Positions 17,532 to 44,005 of a stretch of DNA of 64,000 nt are shown one piece after another. The stretch comes from Nitzschia sp. pyKryTriq1 (Eukaryota; Bacillariophyta; Bacillariophyceae; Bacillariales; Bacillariaceae). The notes below the pieces were generated by a model that saw only the letters and a list, made by a program, of their open reading frames with translations, was not told the DNA's origin and ran no database searches. The translations under genes were made by a program, and so were the position numbers. Every line of letters begins with the position of its first letter. The stretch's first letter is position 1. The stretch is from contig OY101123.1 of NCBI GenBank assembly GCA_956465555.1, positions 682,001 through 746,000 of the forward strand, written 5' to 3'.

Positions 17532-20117
17532 ATGGTTAACCTGTGGAGGTGCACGACCTTGATGATGTCGCTATCGAAATCCAGCAAGATAAGACGATCG
17601 GCTCATACCGGCACCACGACTTTGTCTGCGTCGAGTACTCGTATGAGTAGTGCAAGTACCACCCGTACTGGTACCGTGGACGCCATGATGGCATCGATAT
17701 CCCCGGCCCTTCTCGCCCAAGCATGGACTCCCGAGATCCTCCAGTGGAATGATAGCCCAGAGAATAGCGATTCCAAACTCGTTGCCCAGGCTGTCGCGCG
17801 GACGTTGCCTCTGTTGGGCGAGGGAGCCGACTCGGTTCCGTTTGTGTGCCGATACCGCACCGAAATTGTCCATCCGTTGTCGACCAAACAGGTCCACTTG
17901 TTACAGTCGCTAATCACGCAACACTCTGCACTCTCATCACTCCGATCCAAGCTCTTGCAAGCCCTGCCTACTGAGAACCCGCCGCCCTCACAAGTTTTGA
18001 CTTCGACTTCCAAAGCCGAGTTGGAAGATTGGTACGCTCCTTACAAGCCGCCGCCGAAAGGATCCATTTTGCAACGGATTCAAACCGAACACCCTCAGCT
18101 GGTACAGGCAGTAGAAGATTTGTGGTGGGGCAGGTCCGTGAAAGTGCCCTTTTCCTTGGGTCCGAAGGACGCCTTGCTCCATCTCTTGAGCTCCAAAATC
18201 GCAGCCGACCCTCGCATTGTCTCGGTCGTGACGGAAGAACTTCAAAAGCATTGTCGCATCCATACTAAACTTGTCAAACCAAAAGAAGAAGAAACTAACA
18301 GCAACAATAACACAAAACGAAACAAGTCTAATAATAATAACAATGCGCAACAACAGCAACAGCAGCAACAACAACAAGCGGAAAAGTATACACATTATGA
18401 CGACTATCGAGGGCATTTGATGTATTTGAAAGACCACCAGGTACTCGCCATTCGACGGGGGGTCGATCAAAAGCAACTGAGTATTAGCTATGACATTGAT
18501 GGAACCAAGATGGAATCTTGTATTGCTTATCATTTGCGGTCGTCGGCGCCCAAGGTACTGGTAAAAGATCATCGGGAACTGTTGAATGAAGCGATTCATG
18601 ATGCTTGGACAAGGCTACTACGACGAAGGGGGACATCCCGTCTCTGGGCTGCCAAATGTCAGCAAGCGCAAGAACGAGCCTATCAAGTCTTTCAAGACAA
18701 TCTAGGGCGGGCTTTGCTCGCACCCCCTTTGGATCTTCGACGACAGCTGCAACATAATTCTATCGATTGGGCATCGTCACTGCTGGCCTTGGACCCCGGA
18801 TACCAAGCAGGAATCAAGTGTGCCATTCTCGATTTCCAAGGGACACCCCAGCGACTTGATACCATTATCTTTTTAGGCCCTCGACGTCAAGCTGGAATCG
18901 ACAAGTTGATTGCGTTGCTGAAAGAAGCTCGTGGCGGCAAAAATGAGCAGGAGTCAAAAGTGCTAGTGGCGTTGGGCAATGGTCATGGAAGCCAAGAATG
19001 TCGAATGCTACTCCAAGAGGCAACCACTATCAGTGAAATTCCAGTGGACATTCAGCTGGTCAATGAGGCCGGGGCCAGTGTCTGGAGTGTCACCGAGACC
19101 GCCAAGCGAGAATTTCCCGACGAGACTCCGGCGTCCATTGCTTCGATATCGATTGGCCGGAGATTGTTGAATCCACTATTTGAACTGGTAAAGGTGCCGC
19201 CGCGGAGTTTAGGGCTGGGCATGTACCAACATGATTTGGCCGAAAAAGAATTGGACGAACGATTGCATCTCGGGAGCGTCGATGCGGTAGCTACGGTGGG
19301 GGTCGACGTGAATTCGTGCAGTTTGGAAATCTTGGAAAAGGTGCCCGGTATACAAAAGTTGGCACCGAAAATTATGGCTGCGCGTCCTTTGAGTCAGCGT
19401 ACCGATCTACTACGGGTGTCAGGTTTCGGCCCAAAGACCTTTGAGAACTCGGCTGCGTTCTTGCGTCTGACCCCCCCGGTGGTGGAGCCACTCGATGCGA
19501 CGCTAGTCCATCCCGAGTCCTACGATTTGGCGCGATGGCTTTTGAAGAAATTATCATGGAAACTAGATCAGCCGATTTCAGATCTTCCACCCAGATCTGA
19601 ATGGCGTCAAGTGTGGGATACGCTTCTACGGGAGGCGTCCGCCAAATGCCAAGTCAGCCAAGGCCGTGTCCTGGCAGTACTTGGCAATCTTGTCGATTCA
19701 ATCAACCATGTGGATCCTCGCATCAAAGATTTAGAAACGAGCTCCACAGATCCGTGTAAAGCATCAACCGAAGGCTGTTCCATGCTCCCTCCCGATTTGG
19801 CTGAATCGTCTAAGGTACTTGCATCCGCCGCTCCAAAAAGGGGCATTCTCGGCGTGGTTCGAAATATTTTGGATTTTGGCGCTTTCATTGACTTTGGCGG
19901 ACCCAACGATGGACTATTGCACAAATCCTATCTTGGATCCAATCTACGCTTGGAAAATTTATTGATAGGTCAGTCGATCGGTGTGGATATTCTAAGTGTA
20001 CGGGGCGACAAGGTTTCGTTGGGAGTTCATGGGATGCGGTCCGAACCACGACAAGAGGCAGTGCCGCGTCAGTGGGGACAGGCCGTGTCCTCACGGAAAC
20101 GAAAGCGACAAATATAG
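17532..20117 (+). CDS. Tex/SRBD1-like S1 RNA-binding protein
   Basis: The 861-aa single-exon product has the full order of bacterial Tex and animal SRBD1: an N-terminal helical region with FVCRYRTEI and a region resembling Tex HtH domains, a YqgF-type RNase H-like fold (ALDPGYQAGIKCAILDFQG, LGNGHGSQECRMLL), a helix-hairpin-helix pair (VGVDVNSCSLEILEKVPGI, LLRVSGFGPKTFENSAAFLRL) and a C-terminal S1 domain (GILGVVRNILDFGAFIDFG...GLLHKSYL). An Asn/Gln run interrupts the N-terminal part at about residues 255-284, an insertion unlike bacterial Tex. The first ~60 residues are Ser/Thr/Arg-rich and could be an organelle-targeting sequence. Role: probably RNA or transcription-related; Tex itself is poorly defined. 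Family identity is firm. Confidence 0.92.
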   Translation: MVNLWRCTTLMMSLSKSSKIRRSAHTGTTTLSASSTRMSSASTTRTGTVDAMMASISPALLAQAWTPEILQWNDSPENSDSKLVAQAVARTLPLLGEGADSVPFVCRYRTEIVHPLSTKQVHLLQSLITQHSALSSLRSKLLQALPTENPPPSQVLTSTSKAELEDWYAPYKPPPKGSILQRIQTEHPQLVQAVEDLWWGRSVKVPFSLGPKDALLHLLSSKIAADPRIVSVVTEELQKHCRIHTKLVKPKEEETNSNNNTKRNKSNNNNNAQQQQQQQQQQAEKYTHYDDYRGHLMYLKDHQVLAIRRGVDQKQLSISYDIDGTKMESCIAYHLRSSAPKVLVKDHRELLNEAIHDAWTRLLRRRGTSRLWAAKCQQAQERAYQVFQDNLGRALLAPPLDLRRQLQHNSIDWASSLLALDPGYQAGIKCAILDFQGTPQRLDTIIFLGPRRQAGIDKLIALLKEARGGKNEQESKVLVALGNGHGSQECRMLLQEATTISEIPVDIQLVNEAGASVWSVTETAKREFPDETPASIASISIGRRLLNPLFELVKVPPRSLGLGMYQHDLAEKELDERLHLGSVDAVATVGVDVNSCSLEILEKVPGIQKLAPKIMAARPLSQRTDLLRVSGFGPKTFENSAAFLRLTPPVVEPLDATLVHPESYDLARWLLKKLSWKLDQPISDLPPRSEWRQVWDTLLREASAKCQVSQGRVLAVLGNLVDSINHVDPRIKDLETSSTDPCKASTEGCSMLPPDLAESSKVLASAAPKRGILGVVRNILDFGAFIDFGGPNDGLLHKSYLGSNLRLENLLIGQSIGVDILSVRGDKVSLGVHGMRSEPRQEAVPRQWGQAVSSRKRKRQI

Positions 20118-22800: not shown

Positions 22801-25176
22801 CTAGGTCCATCGTAAGTCACACGCTAGTGACACATGATCGCTAGGATAGTCTTCATTGGGAATAGCAGGATAGTTCTCCATTTCGGCAATTGTCGGTATC
22901 GGTGCTGAAGAACTAACTTTCCAGCCGTGTTTGTCCCCGGTATCAGAAAGGAAGATGTAGTCGAGGGTCTCAGTAAATCCGACAACATAGTTGGAGAACT
23001 CAGGGATAGGATCGTAACCAGATATGAGCCGAGGAAACGAGTCTGGAAATTCGATGGTGGGAGGCTCGACGGACCAGACAGTATCACGCTTGGGTGGCTG
23101 GAAAGGTGCCAGGGCGTCGTCCAGTGCAGGGTCGCTTTCGTATTCGCATGCATTCTCGGTGTCGAAATAGCTATCACTGCTATCCCATGAGTATTCATCG
23201 AGATTCCTCCAGGTCTCACATTGATCTGGGTCGACTTTTCTATCGCGAAGCAATTTAAAGGCGCCTGAGCTTGGGCAAGAGTTTAGGTCACCACAAAATA
23301 GCAACTGATTTCGTGTCGCAGTGTCCCGGCCCTCTGAACTGCACCAACTATCGAGCTTTTTGCAGACAACGAATGCTTGCATGAGCCGAACATGATCCGC
23401 CAGCGGGTGATAAAACAAATGAGTATTCCCGACTACCAAAGCTGCCGATCCACCCTTGGAAGTACCGCCGGTAACTTCTTTTAGGTGGAGCCGTGCGACC
23501 TGAAGAATCTGGCCAACATTTTCTTCCACGACTTCTCTCAAGTCAGGAATCTTCTCCAGGAAGTGCCGGATATCCTGCATTGAATGCCAATCCCTGTCAA
23601 AGACCGGGGACTCCCTGAACAGATCCCGTATTGGGTATACCTCCATTTCCACGTCGGGCTCAAAAGTTCGAAGAGACCAGAACATAGCGCATCCTATCGT
23701 ACCGATGACAGTTATCAGTAAAATGTAGCAGACTGCGATCTTGCTCATTTCTTTTTACGTACCTTCCAGCTGCGAGGTTGCTTTGTTGCTGTAGAAACCA
23801 GAGAAGCCATGGGCAAGAAGTGCTGGAGAAAGTAACTGCTCATAAACCGTGGCATCGACCTCCTGAAGGCAGATAATGTCAGCGTCGTGCTGAAGAATCT
23901 CGTAAAGGAGAAGCGGCACACGCCTTGTACGGGCCAGAAATGCAACATCACAGTCTGCATACTTGGCTCTACGCTCCACTTCAGGCGACAAGTGAATGTC
24001 AGCCATCAAATTATAGCTCAAGACACGAAGGCCTTCTGAGTGCCCTTGGTCACCACGAACGATCCAGGACGATCTGCGATCCAAAATGGGGAGATTGGGT
24101 CTTGCTGAGACTGTGTTCTGAAATTCGTAGACTTCTTCGTAGCCAATCTTCCGGTCCTGACGAATCGGAGAAATGAGAGCTGTGATTTTCTTTCCAAAAT
24201 CATTCTGGGTTGGCGTGTAACAATGTGAATCAAAACAGACTTGCTGGGCGTCCGCAAACCACACAACCAAAGCCCGGTCTGCATGCAATATTTTTGTCTC
24301 AATCACCAGTGGCACGCCCACAAAGACATCCGCCGTGAAATCTTCAAAGTTGCGTACATACAGAAGAGTCGGAGGGCACGGGTCCAGATCCAAAGTAATG
24401 CCTGACTCAGTGATGATATCCACCCAAAGACGACTCTTTGGACCGTGCATGAGACTGAGCCACAAATCTTTATTTTCCATTCCTTCTTCGAGCTGGAGCT
24501 TTCGATACCCATCGAGATCATCATCTTCTTCTGGATCCCCATCACATGTCTCCGAATTCGGGTCTAGGACTAGAATCGAGGAACTCGTCTCCCCAATTTG
24601 AGAAGTACTACTTAACGTTCTTCGTTGCGATTTGGGTTTCTTTCCTTCCAATTTTCGTTGTGTGGATATTTCGATCCTACGTAACGTTCGTTGTGCTGTT
24701 TCCGTAGAATCGCGCTGCAGAGCTAGAATCGTCGTGACCGGCTGGAAGCTCTCTGTTTCAGGGTCGAAGGCGGACGTCTCGAGCTGAATATCGAGGGTGA
24801 CGATCTGATTCTCAACGTCCTCATATTGATCACTTTGTCGTTGATAAGTTCCGGTGAGTCTTTTGTTCGGCCACACGATTCTTTTTCTCCAGATGTCCAC
24901 TTCCCCGTCCTGCAACCTGCGATCTATCGGTTTGAAACGCTCAAAGTCGATGTACTCTTTCGGGATGATTCTGGCACTGAGCTTTCCATCGATAGCATGC
25001 ACCCGTTGCTGATCTTGTTGGTTGATAGTGGACATCATTATTATTTGTGATGCGTAAGGTAAGTAGTTCCATCTTAGCGGTATTCGTCGAGGTGAGATGA
25101 ATTGTTGTTGTGGTAGTAATGATCCCGCCCTTTGAAGCTTCGCTACTGCAAGCAAAAGCATTCGGACAAATAACAT
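22801..25176 (-). CDS. PDE12-like endonuclease/exonuclease/phosphatase (EEP) protein, copy A
   Basis: Two exons, 25176-23763 and 23693-22801, with a 69-bp intron (GTACGT..GATAG). The splice restores the conserved QLEGCAMFWSL stretch, matching the neighbouring paralogue (NQEGTAMFWSL). The 768-aa product starts with a likely mitochondrial presequence (MLFVRMLLLAVAKLQRAGSLLPQQQ). The N-terminal half has a PDE12-type beta domain (VWFADAQQVCFDSHCYTP). The EEP domain carries LRVLSYNLMAD, CLQEVD, NTHLFYHP, FCGDLNS and YPSDHVSLACDLRW, so metal and catalytic residues are present. PDE12 trims poly(A) and 2'-5' linked RNA in animal mitochondria. This is the most diverged of three related genes in the window and the only one with an intron and clear presequence. 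Confidence 0.9.
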
Positions 25177-26402: not shown

Positions 26403-28427
26403 CTATATCCTTGGTACCCATTCTAGATCAGCAACCACTGATATGTGATCGCTGGGAAAAGATTGACTAGGCATCGCTTGGTCCCTAGTGACCTGTTCCA
26501 AAGTCGGCATCTCTGCTTGTCTCAGGAATCTCAACTCACCACAGGCAGTTTTTGGCGTCATCAAGATGTGATCGAGAGCTGCGTTGAAGCCAATAATGTA
26601 GTGTGTGAAGTCTGGACATTTCGGGTAGGCAGTCGCCAACTCGGGAAATGATTCTGGGAGTTTCATTTCTGGAAAGTCGTAATCAAACATGTTTTTTTCG
26701 TTTCGTCCCTTGTCTGCCGCCTCCCACTGAAAGGAGTTGAAACACTCACGGTAATCTCGATGGTTCTGTGGAACATATCGATTCATCAAAAGAGCGCCAC
26801 AATTCTTCAAGGAAGTATTCAAATCGCCACAAAAGATAATGGGCTTGGATTGTGAGCCCTGTTCTACCGAAAGTTGGTGGGCGATGGCAAACAGTTGCAT
26901 CAAACGTATATGGGGAGCAGTCGGGTGGAAGAAAAGGTGCGTGTTGGATACCAATAGCGGCGCGCCGTCCACGAATCTTCGGAGATGTGCGGTTTGCACG
27001 ACGTGACCAAGTTTGGTCTTGACTGTATCCTGCAAGTCGGGTCGCTTGCGAAATATCTCTGTAATAACCTCAGCACATGGTTTCCAGTCAGAATCGTCGT
27101 CCTCCAAGGGTGTATCATAGCGCTCCAAGAGTCGACTAAGTGCATAAGTTTGGTAGTCCTTCTCTCCTGCCTCCTGGAACGTGTCCAGGGACCAGAACAT
27201 GGCAGTGCCTTCTTGATTCCCAGCCGTTTGCTTCACGCCATAGAAACCCTGGTACTTGTAGTGACGAAGAACGGGCTTTAGGAGGGTATCAAAAATGATC
27301 TGATCGACTTCTTGAAGACAAATGACATCCGCTTGGTAAGCCAAAATTTCGTGAAGAATCAAAGGCATTCGTCGACTCCGCTTCAGGATATCTACCCCCA
27401 CCCAAGGAAAGAATGATTCCCGATTCGGCCCGGAGAAAGCATTCTGATCCGCCAGAATATTAAACGATATTATCCGAAGAGTGCCGGTGTTGGGTTGCCT
27501 GGGCCCTTGCCAATCGGGACGGATGTTGAGCACCGTATTTTCAGGCCTGGAAGCCGCCACCCGTTCTTGGAACTCATATGCTTCCTGGCAACCGTCGCCG
27601 TTGTGCCCTAACCGCACAGGGGTCACCATGACAGATAATTTCTTACCAGAATCATCAATAGTCGGAGCATACACCCGTGAATCCCTGCAAACCAATTGCT
27701 TGTCGGCATACCAGTCCACCCTGGCACTTGTGGCGAACAGGGTCTCGACCTCAACCAGGACTGGCACATCGGGAAACAGTTCTGACCCAAACTTCTCGAA
27801 GGTAGATATGCCGATAATTGTCGGGGGATTCACTTCAACATGCAAGGTAATGCTCAAGTCGTCGATCGAAACCAAGACAGAGAGAGCACTTCTCACTCCA
27901 AGACTCCAAAACTGTAAATTCGTCATTCCGGCAGGATCGATCTGGTCTCTTTCCCCTTCCAACAATGCGACGCACTTGGCTGGTGGTGCACGAGCATTCT
28001 GGTTGGACCTTTTCCCTTCAATGCCACGATTTTGCTTCGATTTGAATTTTCTTGCGATGCTAAGGCCGAGCCGATTGAGGCAATTATCAGCAGCTTCACC
28101 GTATTGTCGTGTCAGGGTGACGACAGATGTTGGAATCCTTGTTGCTCGACCCCCTGGGGCAGATCTTCTTGGTGGGAAGATATAAATGTCCAATCTCATT
28201 GAGGCGGTTGAATCTTGTGTATCGCTGATATTATTATCGAGCTCTGGTGATGATTCCTCGTGTATTATTGGTGCAGCGGGCCTGAAGTTCAGCGCCCCAC
28301 TTCCCTCGACCAACGAGCAGGGATCGGACTTCGCGTCTGGCTTTCTCTTTTGGTCGTAGTCATTCTCTATTTCTTTGCCAAGAAATCTGACGACGAGCCG
28401 GCCTGTCCATTCAAGATCACTCGACAT
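26403..28427 (-). CDS. PDE12-like EEP protein, copy B (complete)
   Basis: Single exon, 674 aa. I start at ATG 28427 (MSSDLEWTGRLVVRFLG) since the frame above it is a GGAT microsatellite coding for PSIHPSIH. The beta domain (VDWYADKQLVCRDSRVYAP) and EEP domain match copy A: RIISFNILAD, ICLQEVDQIIFD, NTHLFFHP, FCGDLNTS, SFPSDHISVVADLEW. All key residues are present. Unlike copy A there is no presequence and no intron, so a cytosolic or nuclear location is more likely. Bases 26710 onward belong to the duplicated block; the last ~300 bp of the gene (26403-26709) are unique to this copy, which makes it the whole version of the truncated copy at 35829-37548. Confidence 0.9.
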   Translation of the reverse strand: MSSDLEWTGRLVVRFLGKEIENDYDQKRKPDAKSDPCSLVEGSGALNFRPAAPIIHEESSPELDNNISDTQDSTASMRLDIYIFPPRRSAPGGRATRIPTSVVTLTRQYGEAADNCLNRLGLSIARKFKSKQNRGIEGKRSNQNARAPPAKCVALLEGERDQIDPAGMTNLQFWSLGVRSALSVLVSIDDLSITLHVEVNPPTIIGISTFEKFGSELFPDVPVLVEVETLFATSARVDWYADKQLVCRDSRVYAPTIDDSGKKLSVMVTPVRLGHNGDGCQEAYEFQERVAASRPENTVLNIRPDWQGPRQPNTGTLRIISFNILADQNAFSGPNRESFFPWVGVDILKRSRRMPLILHEILAYQADVICLQEVDQIIFDTLLKPVLRHYKYQGFYGVKQTAGNQEGTAMFWSLDTFQEAGEKDYQTYALSRLLERYDTPLEDDDSDWKPCAEVITEIFRKRPDLQDTVKTKLGHVVQTAHLRRFVDGAPLLVSNTHLFFHPTAPHIRLMQLFAIAHQLSVEQGSQSKPIIFCGDLNTSLKNCGALLMNRYVPQNHRDYRECFNSFQWEAADKGRNEKNMFDYDFPEMKLPESFPELATAYPKCPDFTHYIIGFNAALDHILMTPKTACGELRFLRQAEMPTLEQVTRDQAMPSQSFPSDHISVVADLEWVPRI

Positions 28428-28953
28428 GCGGTATGTACCGGTATTGTTGACTGGATGGATGGATGGATGGATGGATGGGGAAGTAGTTACAATCGTTTTT
28501 CTGGAGCAGATTGGAGTTGCCAGCAATCATTTCCTCCTACTCCAGCATAATGATGGTAATAATAATGACGAACGCGGGAACGCGATGAGAGCGGAGACCC
28601 CGCGACACCCGCACATTATTGCGGACGAGAGATTCTTCGGTCTCCTTGGTCGATATGGTCAATTTTCAGTCGTTGACACCGCAGAAAAATGAGGCATCAT
28701 ATCCAATCATCGTCATCAAATTCATGCTATGTATGTCTCCCACTCCGCTGCCGTCATCACAAAATCGATTTCATTCATCCATACATAGGCCTAGTTCCAT
28801 TGCAAGAACCTCCCTAAAATTCACAGTACTGTTGGCCTATCACTAGGCTGGTGTATGAAAGAGCGGTTTGACCGACACAAGTAGTTGTCCAAGAGGTAGT
28901 AGTCTCGTCCTGCCTCTTCCTTGCATACCATACAGCTTCCATCGGGACAGTGG

Positions 28954-29088
28954 GTTGATCGGGACACAGGCATGGACCTCTGTGCGTATATTTATACATA
29001 CCTTTGTTTCATGTATGAGCATACATATGGTTTGAACTATCCTCTATTACATATGAACATAAGTAACCGTGCCCGTGTCCCGATCAAC
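28954..29088. mobile_element. 135-bp inverted-repeat element (MITE-like)
   Basis: The ends are GTTGATCGGGACACAGGCAT and its near-perfect complement, about 22 bp with two mismatches. The inside is AT-rich and non-coding. A second copy is at 38081-38215. Pieces of a further one, partly inverted, lie at about 38650-38716 and 38770-38840. No target-site duplication is evident. Confidence 0.65.
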
Positions 29089-29479
29089 AACACGTAATAT
29101 CGCGCGGAAAGGTTCAATGGGGTGCTTGCCCCATTGGGGTTCAATGGGGTACTTACATACCACAATGATGTGATGCGCGCCCATGAAATTTTTGATTCTG
29201 ATGAGTCATTCGGTTGTGGGACTGTAACGGGATTCCGATCGACCATAACGGAATCCGATCGACTAGCTGGACTCGAAATAAATCGGATGACGTACAGACG
29301 GTATTCTACCACCAAATCAGGAATTTGTTGATTATTGACCACGAAATCAGGAACCACGAAATCAGGAAGTCGTGATGACCCTACCACGAAATGGAAACGA
29401 GGAGCCGTGCGAGTCCTGACCACCACAATGGGTGGGCAAGCACCCCATTGAACCTTTGAGCGCGATATTACGTGTTGTT
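29086..29479. mobile_element. 394-bp element with ~45-bp terminal inverted repeats (MITE-like)
   Basis: The left end, starting AACAACACGTAATATCGCGC and continuing into GGTTCAATGGGGTGCTTGCCC, is repeated inverted at about 29432-29479. The inside is non-coding and includes the ACCACGAAATCAGG tandem repeat. The right duplicated block has only the left end of it (about 38213 on); the right end is replaced by unrelated sequence. The length and arms fit a non-autonomous DNA transposon, family unknown. Confidence 0.7.
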
Positions 29480-29753
29480 AACCACAATGGGGTGAAAGAA
29501 GTCATGCAAGACTAATATTTCCCCAAGTCAGCGCAATATCTTTTCTCAACAAATTGATTTTGAAACAAGTAGTTCCAAAATAACAATTCATTTCTAGCTC
29601 ATAATTTTCACTTTCAATCATTCTTGTCGACTACCTCGTGCATAGGGCAACGGAGGACCCTAGTTCGTAAGCTTCGAACCCCCCTTGGCTAATCCCTGCA
29701 TTGCTCGGCTTCGCCTCGCTGTTGTTGCTGCTGTGCTCGGCTGACGCCTCGCA

Positions 29754-29754
29754 G

Positions 29755-29786
<32 letters not shown>

Positions 29787-29787
29787 G
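29754..29787. repeat. (GTT)n microsatellite
   Basis: About eleven GTT units. The right block has only about five at 39219-39234, so the run changed length after the duplication. Confidence 0.9.
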
Positions 29788-30531
29788 GTTGCGTTGCCCG
29801 CATCGACCCCGCCGACCGACCGACCGACCGAGACGATTTTGATGAATAGACTGTACCGACCGTACTCGTGTGTACACATTGCAGTACAGTACATACATAC
29901 CTACCGGTATGTACAGAGTCTACCGTAGACCCCCCTTCTCCACACATACCGGTACAGTACAGGACTACAGTACGGGTGCGTGGTCGGTGGCCATCTGCTC
30001 GACGACGCATGGCGGCGGCATTAGGATCTATTTATTAAACCACGTACTTGTATTCGCCGTGCAGTAAACACATTATTTATGTAGTCGGGATCTATCAATC
30101 GCATCTCAGTTCTTGCCACCTCAGTTTCTTGAACACTTTGATTGGCTCAAAAGTATCACAGTCTTGTCACAAGGCAACAGTTACCGGTGTGCGAGTATGT
30201 ACCGACCGGTAAAGAACATCACAAACAGGAAGAACGAAGAACGCTGATGCGGAAATGCATATAAGCCCATTTGCACCACGTCGATGGGGAATGGGGAGTG
30301 CGGTTTTGTCCGATCACTTTTTCCCAGTCTTTTACTTGTACAGCGTACCGGTACTGTACACCGCCATGCATCGCATACAAACGAATAATAATAATGGTGA
30401 TGGATGAAGCACAAAAAAGCACACCACTTGTGTGGTAAAAATACAATACTTGTTCCACCTTATCTTGACGCCCACAATAAAATAATAAACAAACCAGACT
30501 TATCTCTTCGACATCTCATTGGCAGCGGCAT

Positions 30532-32248
30532 TTATGATAACTCGACCGACGTTTGAATTCCTCTTGGAGCCACGCCGCACTCTTTTCCGAGGATATCGTG
30601 ATTGTTGGAGCCGAGCCATTCTTCCACATCCATGTTCGACTTACTATCAGAAGCAGTCGACATTCCCCCACCACCCTTTTGTAAATACTTGTTCCAATCG
30701 TTGGAGGTCATTGGGTCTGAGGAGCGTTGTGGCATATCGCTGACACTTCGAAGCATGGATCCAGGCTTGGCAATGGAAAATTCCGCTTCCGTCTCGAGGG
30801 TCGCACTCACCGTGTACTGGCTGGAGCTACCACATGCCGCCTTATTAGCCCCCATGACCAAGTCGCCTACAATCGCAGCTGCGCCGGAAGCTGCCAAATC
30901 CACAGCATCCGAAAGAGTTGACTGTAGCTCTTTCAAGGCTACACCAGATGAGACACGTTTCACTGCCGGTTCGGAGAAGCTACGGTAGGCCATAGTCTTG
31001 GGTTTCTCAATGACGAGATTTTCTTCTTTCGATTCTGGCTCTTCAACACTCACAGCTCCTTGGGGATGAAAGGGTGCCACCACCGTTGGCTTTTCTTCCT
31101 CGGACGATGATTCTATCGGGTCTTGTGCGAAAGGTGCCACACGACGGACTCCCACATTTCTGCTGGGATACTCTTCTTCGTCTCCGTCCTTCCCTCCACC
31201 GAGATTCTCGACAATTCCATCGGGAGATATCATGGGTCGAAGAACATTGGGCGTTTCAGTCTCTTTTGTTTCGTCGATAGGAACATCTTCCTCTTCATCA
31301 TCGTCGACCATCATCACATTCTCGGGAGAAGGAGAGACAACGGCCTTGCTTTGAGGAGGACTCGTTTCCTCCTCATTCTCCGACTTGGTGGTGGCGGTGG
31401 TAGTGGGCATAATGGGAGTATCCCAAGCCATGGTCTGCTTGAGGATGTTGGGCGGGGATCGAAGCTGCTGAATTGGTGTTGAGATGATCGCCGTAGTATT
31501 CAATGGTCCCGGCTCTTGTTCTTCTTCTCCTCCTTCGTCGGCGGCGTCATCATCATCCTCGTCGAGCGGCGCCTCAGTGGACTGCATCATCAGCCTCATC
31601 ATGGCTGCCATTTCTTCTTCCGGATCTTCCGGTTGTTCTCCAGAAAATGTTCGTCGAGGACTTGGTGTCATGAGCCGGTCGCTGGTCCACTGAGCTACTC
31701 CTCCATCTACCGGCTCTTCAATTTCGGACGTCAAGGATCGGTCGACCGCCAGCGAAGGAGGCTGACTTTCATCATCGTCACCGTCACCGTCGTTGTCCTT
31801 GTCGCCGCCTGTCACCTTGGCAGGATCGCTAGCAGGAGCAGTGCTAGTATAAACAGAAGAAGAATAGGATTCATTGACCTCGCGTTGGGCTTGTTTACCC
31901 ATCAATTCATCTCCACCCTCCGGTTCCTTCTTTTCGTCCATCTGTAGTACTTTGAGCATTCTCCCGCCGCCTTCATCGAACGGAGCTTCTGTTTTGAGAG
32001 GCAAGCGCGGTGGCTCTTCTTCTTCGTCTTCTTCGTCGTTCAGCGATGCATCCAGGTGTTTTCGAGGGGGAGTTCAGAGGAAGAGGCGAAGAGTCGTCCT
32101 CATGGTTGTCTTTGGAAATAACGGCTGCTTCGACTTCGTAAGAACTCATTTCAGCGGCTCCAACGAGGACTTTGACTTCTGCTTCTTCTGAGTCATGATG
32201 ATCATTGCCGAGTGTGGTGGTGGTAGTGCTTTGTTTGGCTAGAAACAA
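30532..32248 (-). CDS. Acidic, disordered protein of unknown function (frame break near 5' end; 3' end at duplication edge)
   Basis: The main frame 32004-30532 encodes 490 aa rich in Glu, Asp, Pro and Ser with no recognised domain. A conserved-looking stretch is LSDAVDLAASGAAAIVGDLVMGAN, and there is a basic SFSEPAVKRVSSG patch. Upstream, 32248-31973 holds another frame starting MFLAKQSTTTTT...MSSYEVEAAVISKDNHEDDSS. That frame would run smoothly into an acidic NDEEDEEEEPP segment of the main frame if the GGGGG at 32066-32070 were one base shorter. The gene is therefore either frameshifted, affected by a sequence error, or truly starts near 32004. The last four codons and the stop come from the duplicated block, so the original C-terminus was probably replaced. 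I do not recognise the protein. Confidence 0.6.
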
Positions 32249-34239: not shown

Positions 34240-35746
34240 CTAGTTAGCACCTTTCTTTTTCCGAGTCGAAGTGAGAACTTTCATCACTTTGTTCTTTTGG
34301 TTCTTAGTTTTCTGGAGTGAGTGTTGATTTTGAATACTCGGCGAAGCTCGATTAACTTTTGCTTCTCTCCTTTCTCCCTTCGGTGGTGTGGAGGGCTTTG
34401 GATCTTGTTGTTCAGGAATCGAAAAGGTTTTTCGAAGTTCCTCTACGGCCTGCTCGAATGTAGTTCCACGGCTCTTTACCATGTTGATCTTGTCAGCAGT
34501 TACGTAGCACCTTCGATCGTGAGCTCCGTATTCTTTCTGCTGCAGGTCCAAAATGCGGCCAAACCTCTTTGAAGAGTCGAAATGTGTCAGGACTCCTTCA
34601 GTTACTCGGCCGCGAGGAGAACCTAGACAAGTTGTGCACGTACCATTGCTGCCTTCTGTGGATCGCCATTAAGAAGATTGGTCACCGCCAAATGATCCAT
34701 GGTGGCGACAATAGTAGAGTTGGCACCTTTCACAAGAAGTTGTTGTTCCTGTCACGAAAAAGAGGATTCGAGAGCTAATTATCTCGGATCGACAAGAGAA
34801 TACTACTACTGATACTTCAGCGCACTTACCATGAGTGCATTTTCCAGCGCTGTCACGGCCATAGGTAGTTCGCTTGTGACAAGTTTCACGAATCCGATGT
34901 TGGCACGCGTAATGGAGATATTGAGGGAGATCGATTGACCCACCGCAGCCGAGCTGAGGTACAAACTGTGGCTCAGAACGCCGAATTGTACATCCAATGA
35001 CTCGCGATAAAACGTGTTGGCTGCCCCTGGCTGACCGCACATGTAAGCAAGGCAGCCGAGATTGTTCAAAATTTCTGCCATTTGCATCCGATCTCCCAAG
35101 TCCTTTGCAAAGCTCCTGGCGTATACCAATGCCTGTTCAAGCTTGGCATGAGCCTCCGCGAATTCATTTAGCGCGTACATGCAAGTAGCAAGCTTTACCA
35201 AAGATGCCTGAGAAAATCAAGAAACGAGGTGGGTAAGTTTGGAAGCGATCAGGCAACAGATACTCCTACGATGTAAAAGAAACGTACCACGTGGTCTGGG
35301 TGTCCTTCGCCCAAGCAGGCTTTTCGATTCTCCACGGCCCGTCCAAAGTAGGACAAAGCTTCCTTGTATTCTCCATTGAGGAGATTGAGGAGATGGAGGA
35401 TACCGAGGTTGTGCAGTGCGACGCCAATGTACGGTCGAAAATCGGTAATGCCTCCATTCCCCATACCTGGATTTGCTTCTCTCGCCTTGAGAGATTTTTC
35501 AAAGTAGGCATAATATGCAAAGATAATGTCTTCAAAGAGTTCCAAGGCCTCATCGATTTCGTCGTGCTGCAAATGACCAAGTGCCGCCTGCTGGGTGGAC
35601 TGTACCGTTCGGACCCCGCCTGCTACACGGGCTTTGTCCATATCGACGGGCAAAGAGGACCTTCCTCGTGCCGGACTTCCTGGCGTACGTTCGTCTTCTG
35701 GGGTAGGTACTTGTATGCTTCCAATGCTTCCCATGCTTCGCCTCAT
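34240..35746 (-). CDS. TPR-repeat protein (kinesin light chain-like TPRs)
   Basis: Four exons fit: 35746-35288, 35207-34830, 34748-34644 and 34566-34240, all with GT-AG introns in phase 0, giving 422 aa. The ATG at 35746 (MRRSMGSIGSIQVPTPEDE) is chosen because it is the first in-frame Met after the duplication edge at 35829. TPR-like pairs are seen in ALGHLQHDEIDEALELFEDII, GVALHNLGILHLLNGEYKEALSYFGRAVENRK, MYALNEFAEAHAKLEQALVYAR and EILNNLGCLAYMCGQPGAANTFYRESL. A Lys-rich tail ends the protein. Such proteins are usually scaffolds; partners are unknown. The frame stays open upstream into the truncated EEP gene, so automatic annotation could merge the two. The intact start argues that TPR is a gene of its own. 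Confidence 0.78.
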
Positions 35747-35828
35747 CCGACGGCATCTCCAAATGGCACCGTGAACCCGGTTTGCCCAGGTTGCCTTTTT
35801 GGAGGTGTCGACTCGTCCTGTATTCTCA

Positions 35829-37548
35829 TTGTCTGCCGCCTCCCACTGAAAGGAGTTGAAACACTCACGGTAATCTCGATGGTTCTGTGGAACATATCGA
35901 TTCATCAAAAGAGCGCCACAATTCTTCAAGGAAGTATTCAAATCGCCACAAAAGATAATGGGCTTGGATTGTGAGCCCTGTTCTACCGAAAGTTGGTGGG
36001 CGATGGCAAACAGTTGCATCAAACGTATATGGGGAGCAATCGGGTGGAAGAAAAGGTGCGTGTTGGATACCAATAGCGGCGCGCCGTCCACTAATCTTCG
36101 GAGATGTGCGGTTTGCACGACGTGACCAAGTTTGGTCTTGACTGTATCCTGCAAGTCGGGTCGCTTGCGAAATATCTCTGTAATAACCTCAGCACATGGT
36201 TTCCAGTCAGAATCGTCGTCCTCCAAGGGTGTATCATAGCGCTCCAAGAGTCGACTAAGTGCATAAGTTTGGTAGTCCTTCTCTCCTGCCTCCTGGAACG
36301 TGTCCAGGGACCAGAACATGGCAGTGCCTTCTTGATTCCCAGCCGTTTGCTTCACGCCATAGAAACCCTGGTACTTGTAGTAACGAAGAACGGGCTTTAG
36401 GAGGGTATCAAAAATGATCTGATCGACTTCTTGAAGACAAATGACATCCGCTTGGTAAGCCAAAATTTCGTGAAGAATCAAAGGCATTCGTCGACTCCGC
36501 TTCAGGATATCTACCCCCACCCAAGGAAAGAATGATTCCCGATTCGGCCCGGAGAAAGCCTTCTGATCCGCCAGAATATTAAACGATATTATCCGAAGAG
36601 TGCCGGTGTTGGGTTGCCTGGGCCCTTGCCAATCGGGACGGATGTTGAGCACCGTATTTTCAGGCCTGGAAGCCGCCACCCGTTCTTGGAACTCATATGC
36701 TTCCGGGCAACCGTCGCCGTTGTGCCCTAACCGCACAGGGGTCACCATGACAGATAATTTCTTACCAGAATCATCAATAGTCGGAGCATACACCCGTGAA
36801 TCCCTGCAAACCAATTGCTTGTCGGCATACCAGTCCACCCTGGCACTTGTGGCGAACAGGGTCTCGACCACCTCAACCAGGACTGGCACATCGGGAAACA
36901 GTTCTGACCCAAACTTCTCGAAGGTAGATATGCCGATAATTGTCGGGGGATTCACTTCAACATGCAAGGTAATGCTCAAGTCGTCGATCGAAGCCAAGAC
37001 AGAGAGAGCACTTCTCACTCCAAGACTCCAAAACTGTAAATTCGTCATTCCGGCAGGATCGATCTGGTCTCTTCCCCTTCCAACAATGCGACGCACTTGG
37101 CTGGTGGTGCACGAGCATTCTGGTTGGACCTTTTCCCTTCAATGCCACGATTTTTCTTCGATTTGAATTTTCTTGCGATGCTAAGGCCGAGCCGATTGAG
37201 GCAATTATCAGCAGCTTCACCGTATTGTCGTGTCAGGGTGACGACAGATGTTGGAATCCTTGTTGCTCGACCCCCTGGGGCAGATCTTCTTGGTGGGAAG
37301 ATATAAATGTCCAATCTCATTGAGGCGGTTGAATCTTGTGTATCGCTGATATTATTATCGAGCTCTGGTGATGATTCCTCGTGTATTATTGGTGAAGCGG
37401 GCCTGAAGTTCAGCGCCCCACTTCCCTCGACCAACGAGCAGGGATCGGACTTCGCGTCTGGCTTTCTCTTTTGGTCGTAGTCATTCTCTATTTCTTTGCC
37501 AAGAAATCTGACGACGAGCCGGCCTGTCCATTCAAGATCGCTCGACAT
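35829..37548 (-). pseudogene. PDE12-like EEP gene, copy C: 3'-truncated and frameshifted
   Basis: Nearly identical to copy B from the ATG (37548, MSSDLEWTGRLVV) on, but it ends at the duplication edge 35829, so the last ~100 residues, including the SDH active-site motif, are missing. Compared with copy B, one T is lost in the run near 37071-37074, which stops the frame soon after CVALLEGE. An in-frame 3-bp insertion (one extra Val) lies near 36870. From about 37096 down the old frame is open again and runs without a stop through the edge into the TPR leader. Without the SDH block it should not be an active nuclease. I call it a recent pseudogene; a chimeric transcript is possible. Confidence 0.82.
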
Positions 37549-38080
37549 GCGGTATGTACCGGTATTGTTGACTGGATGGATGCATGGATGGATGGATGGA
37601 TGGATGGGGAAGTAGTTACAATCGTTTTTCTGGAGCAGATTGGAGTTGCCAGCAATCATTTCCTCCTACTCCAGCATAATGATGGTAATAATAATGACGA
37701 ACGCGGGAACGCGATGAGAGCGGAGACCCCGCGACACCCGCACATTATTGCGGACGAGAGATTCCTCGGTCTCCTTGGTCGATATGGTCAATTTTCAGTC
37801 GTTGACACCGCAGAAAAATGAGGCATCATATCCAATCATCGTCATCAAATTCATGCTATGTATGTCTCCCACTCCGCTTCCGTCATCACAAAATCGATTT
37901 CATTCATCCATACATAGGCCTAGTTCCATTGCAAGAACCTCCCTAAAATTCACAGTACTGTTGGCCTATTACTAGGCTGGTGTATGAAAGAGCGGTTTGA
38001 CCGACACAAGTAGTTGTCCAAGAGGTAGTAGTCTCGTCCTGCCTCTTCCTTGCATACCATACTGCTTCCATCCGGACAGT

Positions 38081-38215
38081 GTTGATCGGGACACAGGCAT
38101 GGACCTCTGTGCGTATATTTATACATACCTTTGTTTCATGTATGAGCATACATATGGTTTGAACTATCCTCTATTACATATGAACATAAGTAACCGTGCC
38201 CGTGTCCCGATCAAC
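38081..38215. mobile_element. 135-bp inverted-repeat element, second copy
   Basis: Same ends (GTTGATCGGGACAC and its complement) and same length as the copy at 28954-29088. Both were carried by the segmental duplication, so they do not represent independent insertions. Confidence 0.65.
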
Positions 38216-38519
38216 AACACGTAATATCGCGCGGAAAGGTTCAATGGGGTGCTTGCCCCATTGCGGTTCAATGGGGTACTTACATACCACAATGATGTGA
38301 TGCGCGCCCATGAAATTTTGGATTCTGATGAGTCATTCGGTTGTGGGACTGTAACGGGATTCCGATCGACCATAACGGAATCCGATCGACTAGCTGGACT
38401 CGAAATAAATCGGATGACGTACAGACGGTATTCTACCACCAAATCAGGAATTTGTTGATTATTGACCACGAAATCAGGAACCACGAAATCAGGAAGTCGT
38501 GATGACCCTACCACGAAAT

Positions 38520-39030
38520 CAGGAAACGAGGAGTCGTGCGAGTCATCGTCACATAATATGAAGAGTTGACTGCTAACTACAGAAATGACCGAGAGACATT
38601 CCCTCAATGCCGCTTTTGTGCTCTACATAGTGTATTCATGTCGGTAAATTTGGCTTGAACTATCCTCTATTACGTATGAACATAAGTAACCGTGCCTGTG
38701 TCCCCCGATCAACAATCAATAAAGCGATTCTAACCGCAGTGAAAAACAAGACGGTGGCCAGGCCCCTAGATGATGAAACAAAGGTATGTATAAATATATA
38801 AAGATCATAGACATGACAACCACGCGCACAGAGGTGGGGGATGGACTAGACGTACAGACGGTATTCTACCACCAAATCAGGCATTTGTTGATTATTGACC
38901 ACGAAATCAGGAACCACGAAATCAGGAAGTCGTGACGACCCTACCTCGTCGTCATTACGATGATTGGCCAAGGATTGGACTGAATGTGAGGAGAACAGAT
39001 CCGCCATCCTGGAGATTCTGCGCCTCAGAT
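38520..39030. other. Rearranged stretch unique to the right duplicated block
   Basis: This stretch replaces the right arm of the 394-bp element found in the left block. It contains half of a 135-bp-type element in direct orientation (about 38650-38716), the other half inverted (about 38770-38840), and another copy of the ACCACGAAATCAGG repeat (about 38869-38945). No gene is present. Confidence 0.6.
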
Positions 39031-39484
39031 GAAGTAGTTCCAAAATAACAATTCATTTCTAGCTCATAATTTTCACTTTCAATCATTCTTGTCGACTACT
39101 ACCTCGTGCATAGGGCAACGGACCCTAGTTCGTAAGCTTCGAACCCCCCTTGGCTAATCCCTGCATTGCTCGGCTTCGCCTCGCTGTTGTTGCTGCTGTG
39201 CTCGGCTTACGCCTCGCAGTTGTTGTTGTTGTTGGTTGCGTTGCCCGCATCGACCCCGCCGACCCACCGACCGACCGAGCTCTACGATTTTGATGAATAG
39301 ACTGTACCGACCGTACTCGTGTGTACACAGTACAGTACAGTACATACCTACCGGTATGTACAGAGTCTACCGTAGACCCCCCTTCTCCACACATACCGGT
39401 ACAGTACAGTCTTGCGGAAAGTTATACAAGTCCGATGAGTCGTGGACACGTGGTTTTCTCTGTTATACAAGATTTGTATATTTT

Positions 39485-39575
39485 TCCGAAAGTACTGGAA
39501 GTATTTGCTTGTGTAAATTCTACTTCAATGGGCCATCCCTGCCAGTACTTTCGGAAGATTATACATCTGGCTGTA
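39485..39575. repeat. Inverted repeats near the left end of the insertion
   Basis: CCGAAAGTACTGG (about 39486) and CCAGTACTTTCGG (about 39541) form perfect 13-bp arms. Beside them GATTATACA and TGTATAATC (about 39554-39577) form 9-bp arms around a 6-base spacer. A similar TATACAA/TTGTATA pair is at about 39464-39481. These lie just upstream of the element's coding region and could be binding sites or its promoter. Confidence 0.7.
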
Positions 39576-39630
39576 TAATCATCCGCAGTACCTCATTTTC
39601 CTGCAGTACTACTATTAGTACTACAGCATC

Positions 39631-41260
39631 ATGTCGGCACAACGAGGAGGACATCGTGGTGGCCGCATTCACCCCCAACAACGAGAAACGAATGATGCTG
39701 TTGCCACGATTGGAGCAGATCTTGCGCCACCGTCTGATTTAGCAGAGCGCTACAATGAGACCGAACGACAGTCAATGGACGACAAGTGCCGCAGGAACTA
39801 CCGGCAAAGGATTGCACGGATCATTCGGTTCTGGCAGGATGAGTCGCCTGAGTATTACCAGGTGGGAGTGCACGATGTTTCTGCTACAGAGCTAGCAGAT
39901 TCATCAAAGTATTATTTTGGCCAGTATGACAAGGACCTATGGTACGAGGGCCTCAATGATCAGTTCGTCCTCCATTTCCTAGTATGCACGAAGCGCAAGG
40001 ATACTGGGAAATTAAAGACCGTTGACGACCTTCGCAAGTACAAAGATGCTATTATGTGGGGGGCTAAACGGGCAGGTGTACTTCTGCCCGCCAAATTCTA
40101 CACAATGTTCGACAACTTCCTGTCGGGGTATAAAAAGGAATATACAAAAGCAAAAAAAGACGGCAATGTCGATGAAACAGCTGCTGATCCGATTCCTGTG
40201 TCCTTATACAGGCTGTTGCTACATACCCGAGGACTTCGAATTTCCTCGGGCCAATCTACAAGAAGCTTTGCGGTTTTGGCTGTTGGGCCAGACCATCAGC
40301 CAATCCGGAAACCGAGTTGTGCGACCTTTTAGGAAATTGTCGGTATCATTTCTTCCAAAAAGATTGGGGACCAAAATGCGAGTTCAATGGTCCCCAATCT
40401 TTCGTTTCTTGGAAGGGAACACAACAGCCCTTCCACAGGACACCAGCACGATGTCCAATGCTGCTATTGAGCAGTACTACAATGAGTGTGTCGATGTTCT
40501 GAAAAGGAAGGTCTCGTACTGTTTTGCCAAAGGGAATCCCACCACTTGGACCGTGGCCACTTGGTCCAACCGTGTTCAAAGATCAACAATTGAACGCCTT
40601 GGAACCGAAGAAGACAAGGCCCAGTTGGGTGATGCGACAAGTCGTAACCAAGCACACAGTGGCGGGCCTAGAAAAAAACGGCAGGCGAAAACCACTCTCT
40701 ACCCAAGGCGACAACAACGGCGTGCTCGTACTGCTACTACTACTACTACTACTACTAACAACAACAACAATGAGAATGAAAACAACAACAACAATGAGAA
40801 CGAAAACAACAACAACAATGATGAGGAGACCGACATGAATGAGAACGAGAACGAGAACGACGAACATAATTTTGTAGCATGTGGCGCGGGGACCACATGC
40901 TTATTTGGGGGCAGGGTTGCCGCCTTTGGCTCTGCCTGCAGAAAGTGCAAGGTGCATTTTCATGCCCCCTGCGGAGGACGCAATCGGCAAGGTGAAGACA
41001 GTGAGCACTGGGAATGCAACAGCTGCTTCGCTACCATTAGTACTACTACCGGTACTACTGCAGGTACCGCTACTACCCGTACCGCTACTACCGGTAGTAG
41101 TAGTACTAGCCGTTTGCAGCCCTGTGCCAACCCCAACTGCCTGTTCGGTGGCATGGCAGATTCCACCCATAAATGCAAGAAGTGCAGGAAGCACATCCAT
41201 GCTCCTTGCGGGAAAGAAACGGATGAGGTAGCATTCGTGACGTGCCCAAAGTGTATGTGA
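39631..41260 (+). CDS. Mobile-element protein region: helical DNA-binding-like N-terminus and two zinc-finger-like modules
   Basis: ATG 39631 opens a frame to 40332; its N-terminal part (about residues 48-195, from MDDKCRRNYRQRIARIIRFW through FYTMFDNFLSGYKKEY) is helical and basic. From memory it resembles the N-terminal domain of tyrosine-recombinase-like proteins abundant in diatoms. The following part lies in another frame, open to 41260. It starts around EDFEFPRANLQEALRFWLLGQ and contains a basic KKRQAK stretch, Thr and Asn/Glu runs, and two related Cys/His modules with spacing C-x5-C-LFGG...C-x2-C-x4-H-x2-PCG...C-x2-C. I see no recombinase Arg-His-Tyr set. The two halves may be joined by a frame change or be separate products. 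A non-autonomous or decayed element is likely. Confidence 0.55.
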
Positions 41261-41334
41261 GTAATTAATATTATAGTAAACGATTTGCATATCACGCGAG
41301 GAAGTCATTATTTTTTACAACAATCAGCCGGCCG

Positions 41335-41760
41335 TAGTAAAATCGCGCGATAATTTTTTTGTGATGCGCGCCTCACATTTTCACAACCTCAACTTGCCAC
41401 TTGGGGCGTCCCGTATTGCTCGTTCCAGGGGATGAGTTGGAGGCCGCCGTAATTCGAGCGTTACTATCAATATACGAACTAATGATTTCCCGGGCGGTTT
41501 TTTATTTGGAGCTCTGTAGCAGCCTCGGGATTGCTACACATAGACAGACAAAATTGAACAAATTTTCAAAACGCTAGTAAAATCGCGCGATAATTTTTGT
41601 GATGCGCGCCTCACATTTTCACAAACTCAACTTGCCTCTTGGGGCGTCCCGTATTGCTCATCCCAGGGGACGAGTTGGACGCCGCCGTAATTCAAGCGTC
41701 AATATCGATATACGAACTAAAGATTGCCCGGGTGGTTTTTTATTTGGAGCTCTAGAGCCG
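41335..41760. repeat. 240-bp direct repeat inside the insertion
   Basis: About 185 bp starting TAGTAAAATCGCGCGATAAT at about 41334 recurs at about 41574, with a 240-bp offset and a few differences. Each copy includes TGATGCGCGCCTCACATTTT and CGGTTTTTTATTTGGAGCTC. It is non-coding. Confidence 0.88.
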
Positions 41761-42019
41761 TCGCGTAATTACGAAATATAAAATGCAAATATTCGTGCCA
41801 CTACTAGCAGTATCGCGTGATTTTGGCCATTTGGCGTCTCGAATATTTTATTCTTGACGCCACGAATCCGGATACTTTACAGCACTAATTCGTAGAGGAT
41901 ATAAAAGAGTAGTATTATGTAGTAGTAGTGTTGCTATATCTCTTATGGTTAATACGGAAGAGGGCGTCGTTTCGAACTAAAATGGCGCGACGATGAACGA
42001 AAATCACGCGTTATCATGC

Positions 42020-42690
42020 GGAGCACGAGAAAAGTACGCGTTATTTTGTTATTATTATGTCATGTTCATGTTCTGAAGCACGGGAAAAGCGCGCGTTATT
42101 TTGTTATTATTATGTAATGTTCATGTTCTAAAGCACGGGAAAAGCACGCGATATTTTGTTATTATTATGTCATGTTCATGTTCTGAAGCACGGGAAAAGC
42201 GCGCGTTATTTTGTTATTATTATGTAATGTTCATGTTCTAAAGCACGGGAAAAGCACGCGATATTTTGTTATTATTATGTCATGTTCATGTTCTGAAGCA
42301 CGGGAAAAGCGCGCGTTATTTTGTTATTATTATGTAATGTTCATGTTCTAAAGCACGGGAAAAGCACGCGATATTTTGTTATTATTATGTCATGTTCATG
42401 TTCTGAAGCACGGGAAAAGCGCGCGTTATTTTGTTATTATTATGTAATGTTCATGTTCTAAAGCACGGGAAAAGCACGCGATATTTTGTTATTATTATGT
42501 CATGTTCATGTTCTGAAGCACGGGAAAAGCGCGCGTTATTTTGTTATTATTATGTAATGTTCATGTTCTAAAGCACGGGAAAAGCACGCGATATTTTGTT
42601 ATTATTATGTCATGTTCATGTTCTGAAGCACGGGAAAAGTACGCGATATTTTGTTATTATTGTGAAGCACGGGAAAAGCACGCGTAATTA
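42020..42690. repeat. 55-bp minisatellite with 110-bp higher-order unit
   Basis: About twelve monomers of 55 bp (core AGCACGGGAAAAG-CGCG-TATTTTGTTATTATTATGT). Two monomer types alternate strictly: one with GCGCGCGTT and TGTAATG, one with GCACGCGAT and TGTCATG. TTCTGAAGCA recurs exactly every 110 bp at 42071, 42181, 42291, 42401, 42511 and 42621. The dimers are almost identical, while the first and last monomers are degenerate. There are no unique spacers, so it is not a CRISPR array. Confidence 0.95.
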
Positions 42691-42755
42691 TGTCTCAGCC
42701 CTCCGTAGTCAAACGTCGTGAGAGTCGGCAGTCGTGTGACGAGTCTTGAGTCATG

Positions 42756-42774
42756 TTATACAACCGTTGTATAA
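42756..42774. promoter_or_regulatory. 19-bp palindrome near the right end of the insertion
   Basis: TTATACAAC-C-GTTGTATAA: 9-bp arms around one base, about 15 bp inside the right end. It shares TTATACAA with motifs at the left end, which suggests a recognition site for the element's own protein (inference). Confidence 0.6.
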
Positions 42775-43318
42775 TATTCCTCCTCACTCTACAGGACTAC
42801 AGTACGGGTGCGTGGTCGGTGGCCATCTGCTCGACGACGCATGGCGGCGGCGTTAGGATCTATTTATTAAACCACGTACTTGTATTCGCCGTGCAGTAAA
42901 CACATCATCTCAGTTCTTGCCACCTCAGTTTCTTGAACACTTTGATTGGCTCAAAAGTATCACAGTCTTGTCACAAGGCAACAGTTACCGGTGTACGAGT
43001 ATGTACCGACCGGTAAAGAACATCACAAACAGGAAGAACGAAGAACGCTGATGCGGAAATGCATATAAGCCCATTTGCACCACGTCGATGGGGAATGGGG
43101 AGTGCAGTTTTGTCCGATCACTTTTTCCCAGTCTTTTACTTGTACAGCGTACCGGTACTGTACACCGCCATGCATCGCATACACAAACAAATAATGGTGA
43201 TGGATGAAGCACAAAAAAGCACACCACTTGTGTGGTAAAAATACAATACTTGTTCCACCTTATCTTGACGCCCACAATAAAATAATAAACAAACCAGACT
43301 TATCTCTTCGACATCTCA

Positions 43319-44005
43319 ATGGCAGCGGCATTTATGATAACACCCACTATACCGTCGGTTGCGAAACGGTCCACGCCGGGAGCGTCTCGCGGATTTTCAT
43401 CTTCATCGAAATCCCAGCACCTTGCCAAGAAGCAACGTATGCAAGAAACATCACCGATTTCCGTCCTTCGATCAATATTCGGAAATGCCGGTGTTGTGAA
43501 TGTGCCACCCAAGCCTTTCAAGAAACCATCAAACGAGGAAATCGACGCCTATGATCTGGACGTTGTGCGTGCCGTTCGCTCGGGTGACTTGACCAAACTG
43601 AAGCTGCTTCACGCTGCGGGGAAAAACCTCAATTGCACAAACAAATTCGGTGAATCCCTGCTGCACATGGCTTGCCGCAGAGGGAACATTGATATACTAT
43701 CATTCATGCTGAAAGAAGCGAATGTCCGAGTAGACATTCGAGACGACTTTGGGCGCACCCCACTTCACGATGCCTGCTGGACTTCCTCACCGAACTTTGC
43801 GATAATGGATGCCCTGATCGAGCGCGTAGATCCTTCCATGTTTTTGTCGGAAGATGTTCGGGGAAGCACGCCCTTTGAATATGTTCGACAGGATCACTGG
43901 TGTGGGTGGGTGAAATACCTAGCGGAGAGAAAGGAAAGACTAGGACAAAGAATACGGGAAGCGCAAGACATTTCTTCGAAGGCGGAATCACGGGCTGACG
44001 ATTAG
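43319..44005 (+). CDS. Ankyrin-repeat protein
   Basis: Single exon, 228 aa. The ATG at 43319 (MAAAFMITPTIPSVAKRS) has its upstream ~500 bp duplicated at about 29960-30520. Residues 1-75 are Ser-rich and basic. Two to three ankyrin repeats follow: DVVRAVRSGDLTKLKLLHAAGKNLN, FGESLLHMACRRGNIDILSFMLKEANVRVDIRD and FGRTPLHDACWTSSPNFAIMDALIERV, each with the TPLH-type turn. A charged helix (KYLAERKERLGQRIREA) ends the protein. It is probably a binding or scaffold protein of the diatom ankyrin expansion; the partner is unknown. It converges on HAT1, 108 bp away. Confidence 0.85.
   Translation: MAAAFMITPTIPSVAKRSTPGASRGFSSSSKSQHLAKKQRMQETSPISVLRSIFGNAGVVNVPPKPFKKPSNEEIDAYDLDVVRAVRSGDLTKLKLLHAAGKNLNCTNKFGESLLHMACRRGNIDILSFMLKEANVRVDIRDDFGRTPLHDACWTSSPNFAIMDALIERVDPSMFLSEDVRGSTPFEYVRQDHWCGWVKYLAERKERLGQRIREAQDISSKAESRADD

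Follow-up and report, generated by a model that had tools for sequence, protein, structure and literature searches.

A 3380-bp insertion in a duplicated block of a Nitzschia genome, possibly a non-autonomous Crypton-like element

The analyzed stretch of DNA (the window; 64,000 nucleotides, positions 682,001 to 746,000 of the forward strand of contig OY101123.1, assembly GCA_956465555.1) comes from the diatom Nitzschia sp. pyKryTriq1. It contains two copies of a duplicated block, one of which is interrupted by a 3380-bp insertion that may be a non-autonomous Crypton-like element. Positions are those of the window, and oriented features lie on the plus strand unless stated otherwise. BLASTN of the 64-kb window against itself pairs the left, empty block (26710–30541) with the right, filled block (35829–43341). 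The stretch 26710–29415 corresponds to 35829–38544 with 98.8% identity over 2719 columns, 29567–29962 to 39032–39409 with 91%, and 29958–30541 to 42790–43341 with 93%, the differences in the latter two being mostly gaps. Small insertions, deletions and substitutions also separate the two blocks.

The two alignments flanking the insertion overlap by five bases in the left block, TACAG at 29958–29962, and the insert therefore spans 39410–42789. The empty site (29567–30541) contains one TACAG at the insertion point, while the filled site has a TACAG on either side of the insert (39405–39409 and 42790–42794). The bases next to TACAG do not match on either side, which fixes the length of the duplication at exactly 5 bp. 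The initial annotation had regarded the left block as a natural empty site that fixes the insertion limits and the 5-bp target duplication, and the self-comparison bears this out. By a rough estimate, a junction repeat of at least 5 bp would arise by chance in about 0.5% of cases in ordinary sequence, and more often in this target. TACAG is not over-represented window-wide, with 57 occurrences on the plus strand and 68 on the other, against about 65 per strand expected from a rough composition estimate. No second copy of the element was found in the window by BLASTN for the DNA or tblastn for the protein. The insertion postdates the block duplication, barring precise excision from the left copy.

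Exo_endo_phos matches occur in three minus-strand open reading frames (ORFs) within about 14 kb, at 22801–23748 (below the Pfam cut-off), 26403–28526 and 35249–37096. The greater part of the latter two falls inside the duplicated blocks, which may make the duplication part of an expanding tandem gene family.

The element contains two overlapping ORFs in different frames, 39631–40332 (233 aa) and 40022–41260 (412 aa). Coding potential was scored as codon-use log-odds trained on nine ORFs of the window, with 10 units charged per stop. The first frame scores +22.8 over 39631–40210 and the second +12.6 over 40232–40700, with the other frames negative. The best single frame switch is at 40225 and the best 15 fall within 40201–40249, with scores less than 2.5 units apart; the switch is thus placed only approximately. 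The N-terminal coding part, residues 1–196 of the first ORF (39631–40218), ends with DPIPVSLYRLL, and the middle module (40220–40618) starts with YIPEDFEFP in the second frame, one base further, and ends with TEEDK. Since the coding score moves from the first frame to the second near 40219–40225, the gene is broken there, through an out-of-frame deletion or a frameshift. We do not favor an intron as the link between the frames, since the coding signal of both extends as far as the switch, although no splice-site program was run. The initial annotation treated the region as a single coding region and missed the broken frame. It was right about a distinct middle module and about the presence of an N-terminal module, which it called basic and helical, but the helical character comes only from a low-confidence AlphaFold model.

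Downstream of a low-complexity T/N/E-rich linker (40730–40864), the second ORF encodes two cysteine-rich, zinc-finger-like modules with C4HC3 spacing, at 40865–41038 and 41111–41257. Both had been recognized earlier, and they are related to each other, with 16 of 35 residues identical over the aligned stretch, 39% identity over the whole alignment and E=3e-9 for the pair alone. Module 1, with PHD-like spacing, matches PHD_2 (E=2.2e-4). Module 2 has no PHD match; its best hit is RH_dom (E=8.2e-4), followed by a SCAND3-type zinc finger (E=0.0091). The whole ORF 40022–41260 matches best to a LITAF-like zinc ribbon (E=2.6e-4). All of these matches are below the Pfam cut-off. When a joint profile of the two modules was compared with the PDB, PHD fingers of PHF2 led the weak matches (best E=0.041, nine listed). 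From these sequence similarities, the modules are best named PHD-like, a weakly supported designation.

BLASTN self-comparison and a repeat search revealed neither long terminal repeats (LTRs) in the element nor a long inverted repeat joining its ends. This part of the earlier description stands, but it overlooked short inverted and direct motifs common to both end regions. Motif copy 1 (CGGAAAGTTATACA, 39415–39428) is located 5 bp from the left end. It is followed by a palindrome at 39463–39488, TTATACA-5-TGTATAT, which has one mismatch to the perfect form and runs into an inverted motif copy 2 (39475–39488, minus strand). Copies 3 and 4 form two 14-bp inverted arms at 39552–39585, 93% complementary and separated by a 6-bp spacer, 45 bp upstream of the ATG at 39631. 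The right end contains the palindrome TTATACA-5-TGTATAA and a weaker inverted motif copy (42768–42781), which together occupy 42756–42781, 8 bp from the end.

The motif CGGAARRTTATACA, with at most one mismatch, matches five times in 64 kb against 0.06 expected; four of the matches, distributed over both strands, fall in the leftmost 176 bp of the element. GTTATACAANNNTTGTATAA, with up to three mismatches, is found in two places, one near each end of the element and each on both strands (0.09 expected). The palindrome TTATACA-5-TGTATAA also occurs in two places, near both ends, with a single mismatch on the left, against 0.17 expected. Because all these patterns come from the element itself, the expected counts speak for recurrence within it and are not blind tests. 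Direct repeats also link the end regions, 39408–39429 with 42742–42763 (82%) and 39461–39487 with 42754–42780 (81%). By inspection, GGAAAGTTATACAA at 39416–39429 agrees with the inverted GGAATATTATACAA at 42767–42780 at 12 of 14 positions, and the outermost nine bases, TCTTGCGGA on the left and GAGTGAGGA read inward from the right, agree at only five of nine. We interpret the subterminal motifs as putative sites at which a single protein binds both ends and the promoter of its own gene. The fifth CGGAARRTTATACA match, with one mismatch, lies outside the element at 18379–18392, within a Tex-like ORF, and is probably due to chance.

Open segments beyond 41261 reach at most 70 aa. The right half, previously described as repeat-rich, resolves into two copies of a 238–240-bp repeat (41335–41793; 91.7% identity over 181 columns) and a tandem array (42022–42661) with 35% G+C, in which a 55-bp unit, organized in 110-bp dimers, is repeated 11.6 times. 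Array units two apart are identical in eight of nine comparisons, and adjacent units are 91–93% alike. This higher-order organization points to recent expansion or homogenization. CRCGCGWTAWTTT is present 12 times in the element, 10 times in the array and twice in the repeat pair, and is absent from the rest of the window. No structural RNA was matched in Rfam at the gathering score in 38500–43500. The Pfam scan covered 12 of the 38 open segments of at least 45 aa in the element; in these segments no recombinase, DDE or reverse transcriptase domain was matched, in line with the earlier statement that neither a reverse transcriptase nor a DDE triad is visible.

Cryptons are a little-studied class of DNA transposons that move by a tyrosine recombinase. 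They are described, in the available excerpt of Kojima and Jurka (2011; PMC3212892), as elements without terminal inverted repeats or long direct repeats, in which short terminal direct repeats (4 or 6 bp in those first described) are held to be the recombination substrates and for which a circular intermediate was proposed. According to the same excerpt, the stramenopile group CryptonS occurs in oomycetes and one diatom, its terminal direct repeats measure 5 or 6 bp, it lacks a GCR1_C domain, and most, though not all, of its members share TATGG termini. Cryptons were also annotated in two diatoms, as far as the excerpts of PMC5859163 and PMC7466962 show. Tyrosine recombinases typically use two 11–13-bp inverted repeats spaced 6–8 bp apart (excerpt of PMC3212892), and the 14+6+14-bp inverted-arm site at 39552–39585 fits these published traits.

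The published Crypton traits agree with the ends of the element, which makes a tyrosine recombinase the most likely mover. We estimate a probability of about 0.5 that the insertion is a non-autonomous, Crypton-like element, nearest to CryptonS, which has lost its catalytic domain, was moved in trans and inserted after the block duplication. The N-terminal coding part would then be a Crypton-type core-binding region and the middle module the C-terminal region of the same protein. The residues YKDAI.W ... F.SGYKK....K..G ... DPIPVSLYRLL are what we take to be a core-binding-like signature of Cryptons; no profile, fold or homologue search supported this likeness. The initial annotation had found no nameable family for the element. 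The ends and this putative signature point instead to a Crypton-like (tyrosine recombinase) element, a family for which the annotation itself had suggested a check, although no profile search confirmed the assignment.

In the proposed mechanism, the recombinase would be supplied by an intact relative elsewhere in the genome, as no such enzyme was found in this copy. It would bind the inverted TTATACA-type arms near both ends and recombine across the 5-bp core TACAG, with the element released or taken up as a circle. Integration would leave one TACAG on each side. In this copy, the catalytic domain would have been lost between the N-terminal core-binding and C-terminal regions, at the frame switch (40219–40225), leaving the element unable to move itself; the same position could also mark a frameshift. 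The combination of a broken gene with 98.8% identity between the blocks over 2.7 kb is in keeping with movement in trans. Published non-autonomous Cryptons include CryptonI-1N1_RPro, CryptonA-1N1_OL and CryptonA-1N2_OL (excerpt of PMC3212892). Given the pair of inverted arms upstream of the ATG, the protein may also regulate its own promoter; a conceivable role of the two PHD-like fingers is to attach it to chromatin or partner proteins.

A number of observations weigh against this interpretation. A Pfam profile search for a tyrosine recombinase or transposase in the N-terminal protein, as suggested in the initial annotation, returned no family at E up to 10, either for the whole protein or for its pieces. 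The middle module gave one unrelated Pfam match (E=0.16). The best PHROGs match has E=0.14 and no known function, and the best PDB sequences (E=0.11 and 0.095) are not recombinases. Single-sequence AlphaFold models were poor, with a mean predicted local distance difference test score (pLDDT) of 42.4 and 36.2, and a Foldseek search with the N-terminal model yielded 10 matches, none with E<=0.001, which we regard as noise. Pattern searches of viral_contigs, not a eukaryote collection, brought up no relative: there were 3 matches with the N-terminal protein, 6 with the middle module, 4 with a core piece of 69 aa and 28 with the zinc-finger alignment. In genome_contigs, a collection not meant for eukaryotic genomes, 25 matches included no relative either. 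Within the element, the coding score of the second frame is as low as +2.8 in the zinc-finger part (about 40880–41258). Three TACAG occur in an 18-bp stretch of the target, which weakens the duplication a little, and the sequence TACAG differs from the TATGG common in CryptonS (excerpt of PMC3212892). When up to three mismatches are allowed, the end motif has 11 occurrences elsewhere in the window beside the six in the element, and the right-end copy is inverted with two mismatches. The end palindromes are not simple crossover sites, since their arms are 5 bp apart and the TACAG core is not within them. Finally, the one-base gap between the N-terminal and middle modules would also result from a one-base frameshift in a protein that had been without a catalytic domain from the start.

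Other searches were equally without yield. A tblastn search of phages returned nothing, and 11 plasmid records with E of 1 to 4 were taken as noise. A Crypton catalytic motif (GTHSIRKG type), searched as degenerate DNA in viral_contigs, was found in 0, 2 and 0 stretches. The two stretches were judged to be chance matches: no ORF of at least 100 aa overlaps 9000–10300 in one (L001), and none of the four ORFs listed around the match in the other (L002) is recombinase-like by eye. Among the literature matches listed, judged by title and the opening of the abstract, none describes a Crypton with PHD-like fingers.

The one-base spacing is the starting point for a different explanation, which we consider unlikely, namely that the N-terminal and middle modules are one DNA-binding protein with a one-base frameshift and without any former recombinase core, the mobility function lying elsewhere or belonging to an undescribed class. 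In its favor, both modules have a coding score in the frame that they occupy, the remaining two frames being negative with stops charged, and the scanned segments contain no known catalytic domain. However, this explanation needs unknown mobility machinery and turns the Crypton-like signature into a coincidence. It is likewise doubtful that an unrelated DDE transposase making 5-bp duplications moved the element, with the TTATACAA motifs as its binding sites and the gene as a passenger encoding a DNA-binding protein. The length of the duplication and the inverted order of the motifs near both ends, seen in the 12 of 14 agreement of GGAAAGTTATACAA and GGAATATTATACAA, would suit such an enzyme, and DDE systems, too, can have subterminal binding sites of this kind. 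Yet the outermost nine bases agree poorly and no inverted repeat joins the ends; the lack of a DDE domain in the scanned segments also speaks against it, while still being compatible with a non-autonomous element.

Site-specific recombinases can excise precisely, leaving one copy of the core that is indistinguishable from an empty site. Precise excision from the left block, in place of insertion into the right, would thus produce the single TACAG observed there and would leave the classification unchanged, but the element would have to predate the block duplication, and we find this course of events quite improbable. A Helitron was ruled out: a 5-bp repeat is present, the end lacks the CTRR expected of a Helitron and no Rep or helicase match was found in the segments scanned. 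An LTR or DIRS-type element was ruled out as well, with no LTRs and no reverse transcriptase match in the same segments.

Elsewhere in the window, one ORF contains a GPKOW C-terminal domain with a G-patch, as in eukaryotic DNA. Two stretches of a 1261-aa minus-strand ORF (13154–16939) match sialic acid esterase (SASA), and its DNA contains internal repeats with about 77% identity, which suggests a duplicated domain.

Crypton boundaries are hard to define because neither terminal inverted repeats nor long direct repeats are present (excerpt of PMC3212892). Here, the empty site in a recent duplication provides the exact ends, the core sequence and the candidate binding sites in one place, thereby opening end recognition by a Crypton-like recombinase to testing. 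This copy is defective and, without other copies, of modest interest. The broken gene frame, the TTATACA-type inverted end motifs and palindromes, and the array of 110-bp dimers go beyond the initial annotation.

The element resembles CryptonS in its 5-bp terminal direct repeat, TACAG (5 or 6 bp in CryptonS), in having only short imperfect subterminal motifs and no terminal inverted or long direct repeats, and in giving no GCR1_C match by Pfam. It differs in that no R-H-R-Y tyrosine recombinase catalytic domain was matched by Pfam in the scanned segments; the claim is one of derivative descent and not of an intact Crypton. It also differs in its two PHD-like fingers and 110-bp tandem array, neither of which is mentioned in the available excerpt of PMC3212892. 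CryptonI-1N1_RPro, CryptonA-1N1_OL and CryptonA-1N2_OL share with it a broken coding capacity and presumed movement in trans, whereas they have named autonomous parents and none is known for this element.

The yeast 2-micron plasmid, with Flp, FRT and STB, also combines inverted-arm sites with a tandem array, of roughly 60-bp units. The element described here may be analogous in that it, too, has inverted-arm sites and a tandem array, next to a gene of possible recombinase origin. In contrast to the plasmid, it is integrated, and no recombinase core was found in it. By a very long shot, it could represent stramenopile recombinase elements that live partly as circles, with inverted-arm sites at the ends and the promoter and the 110-bp iteron array as a maintenance or partition locus, comparable to Flp/FRT/STB. 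If true, such a partly circular life would link Cryptons to plasmid-like selfish circles.

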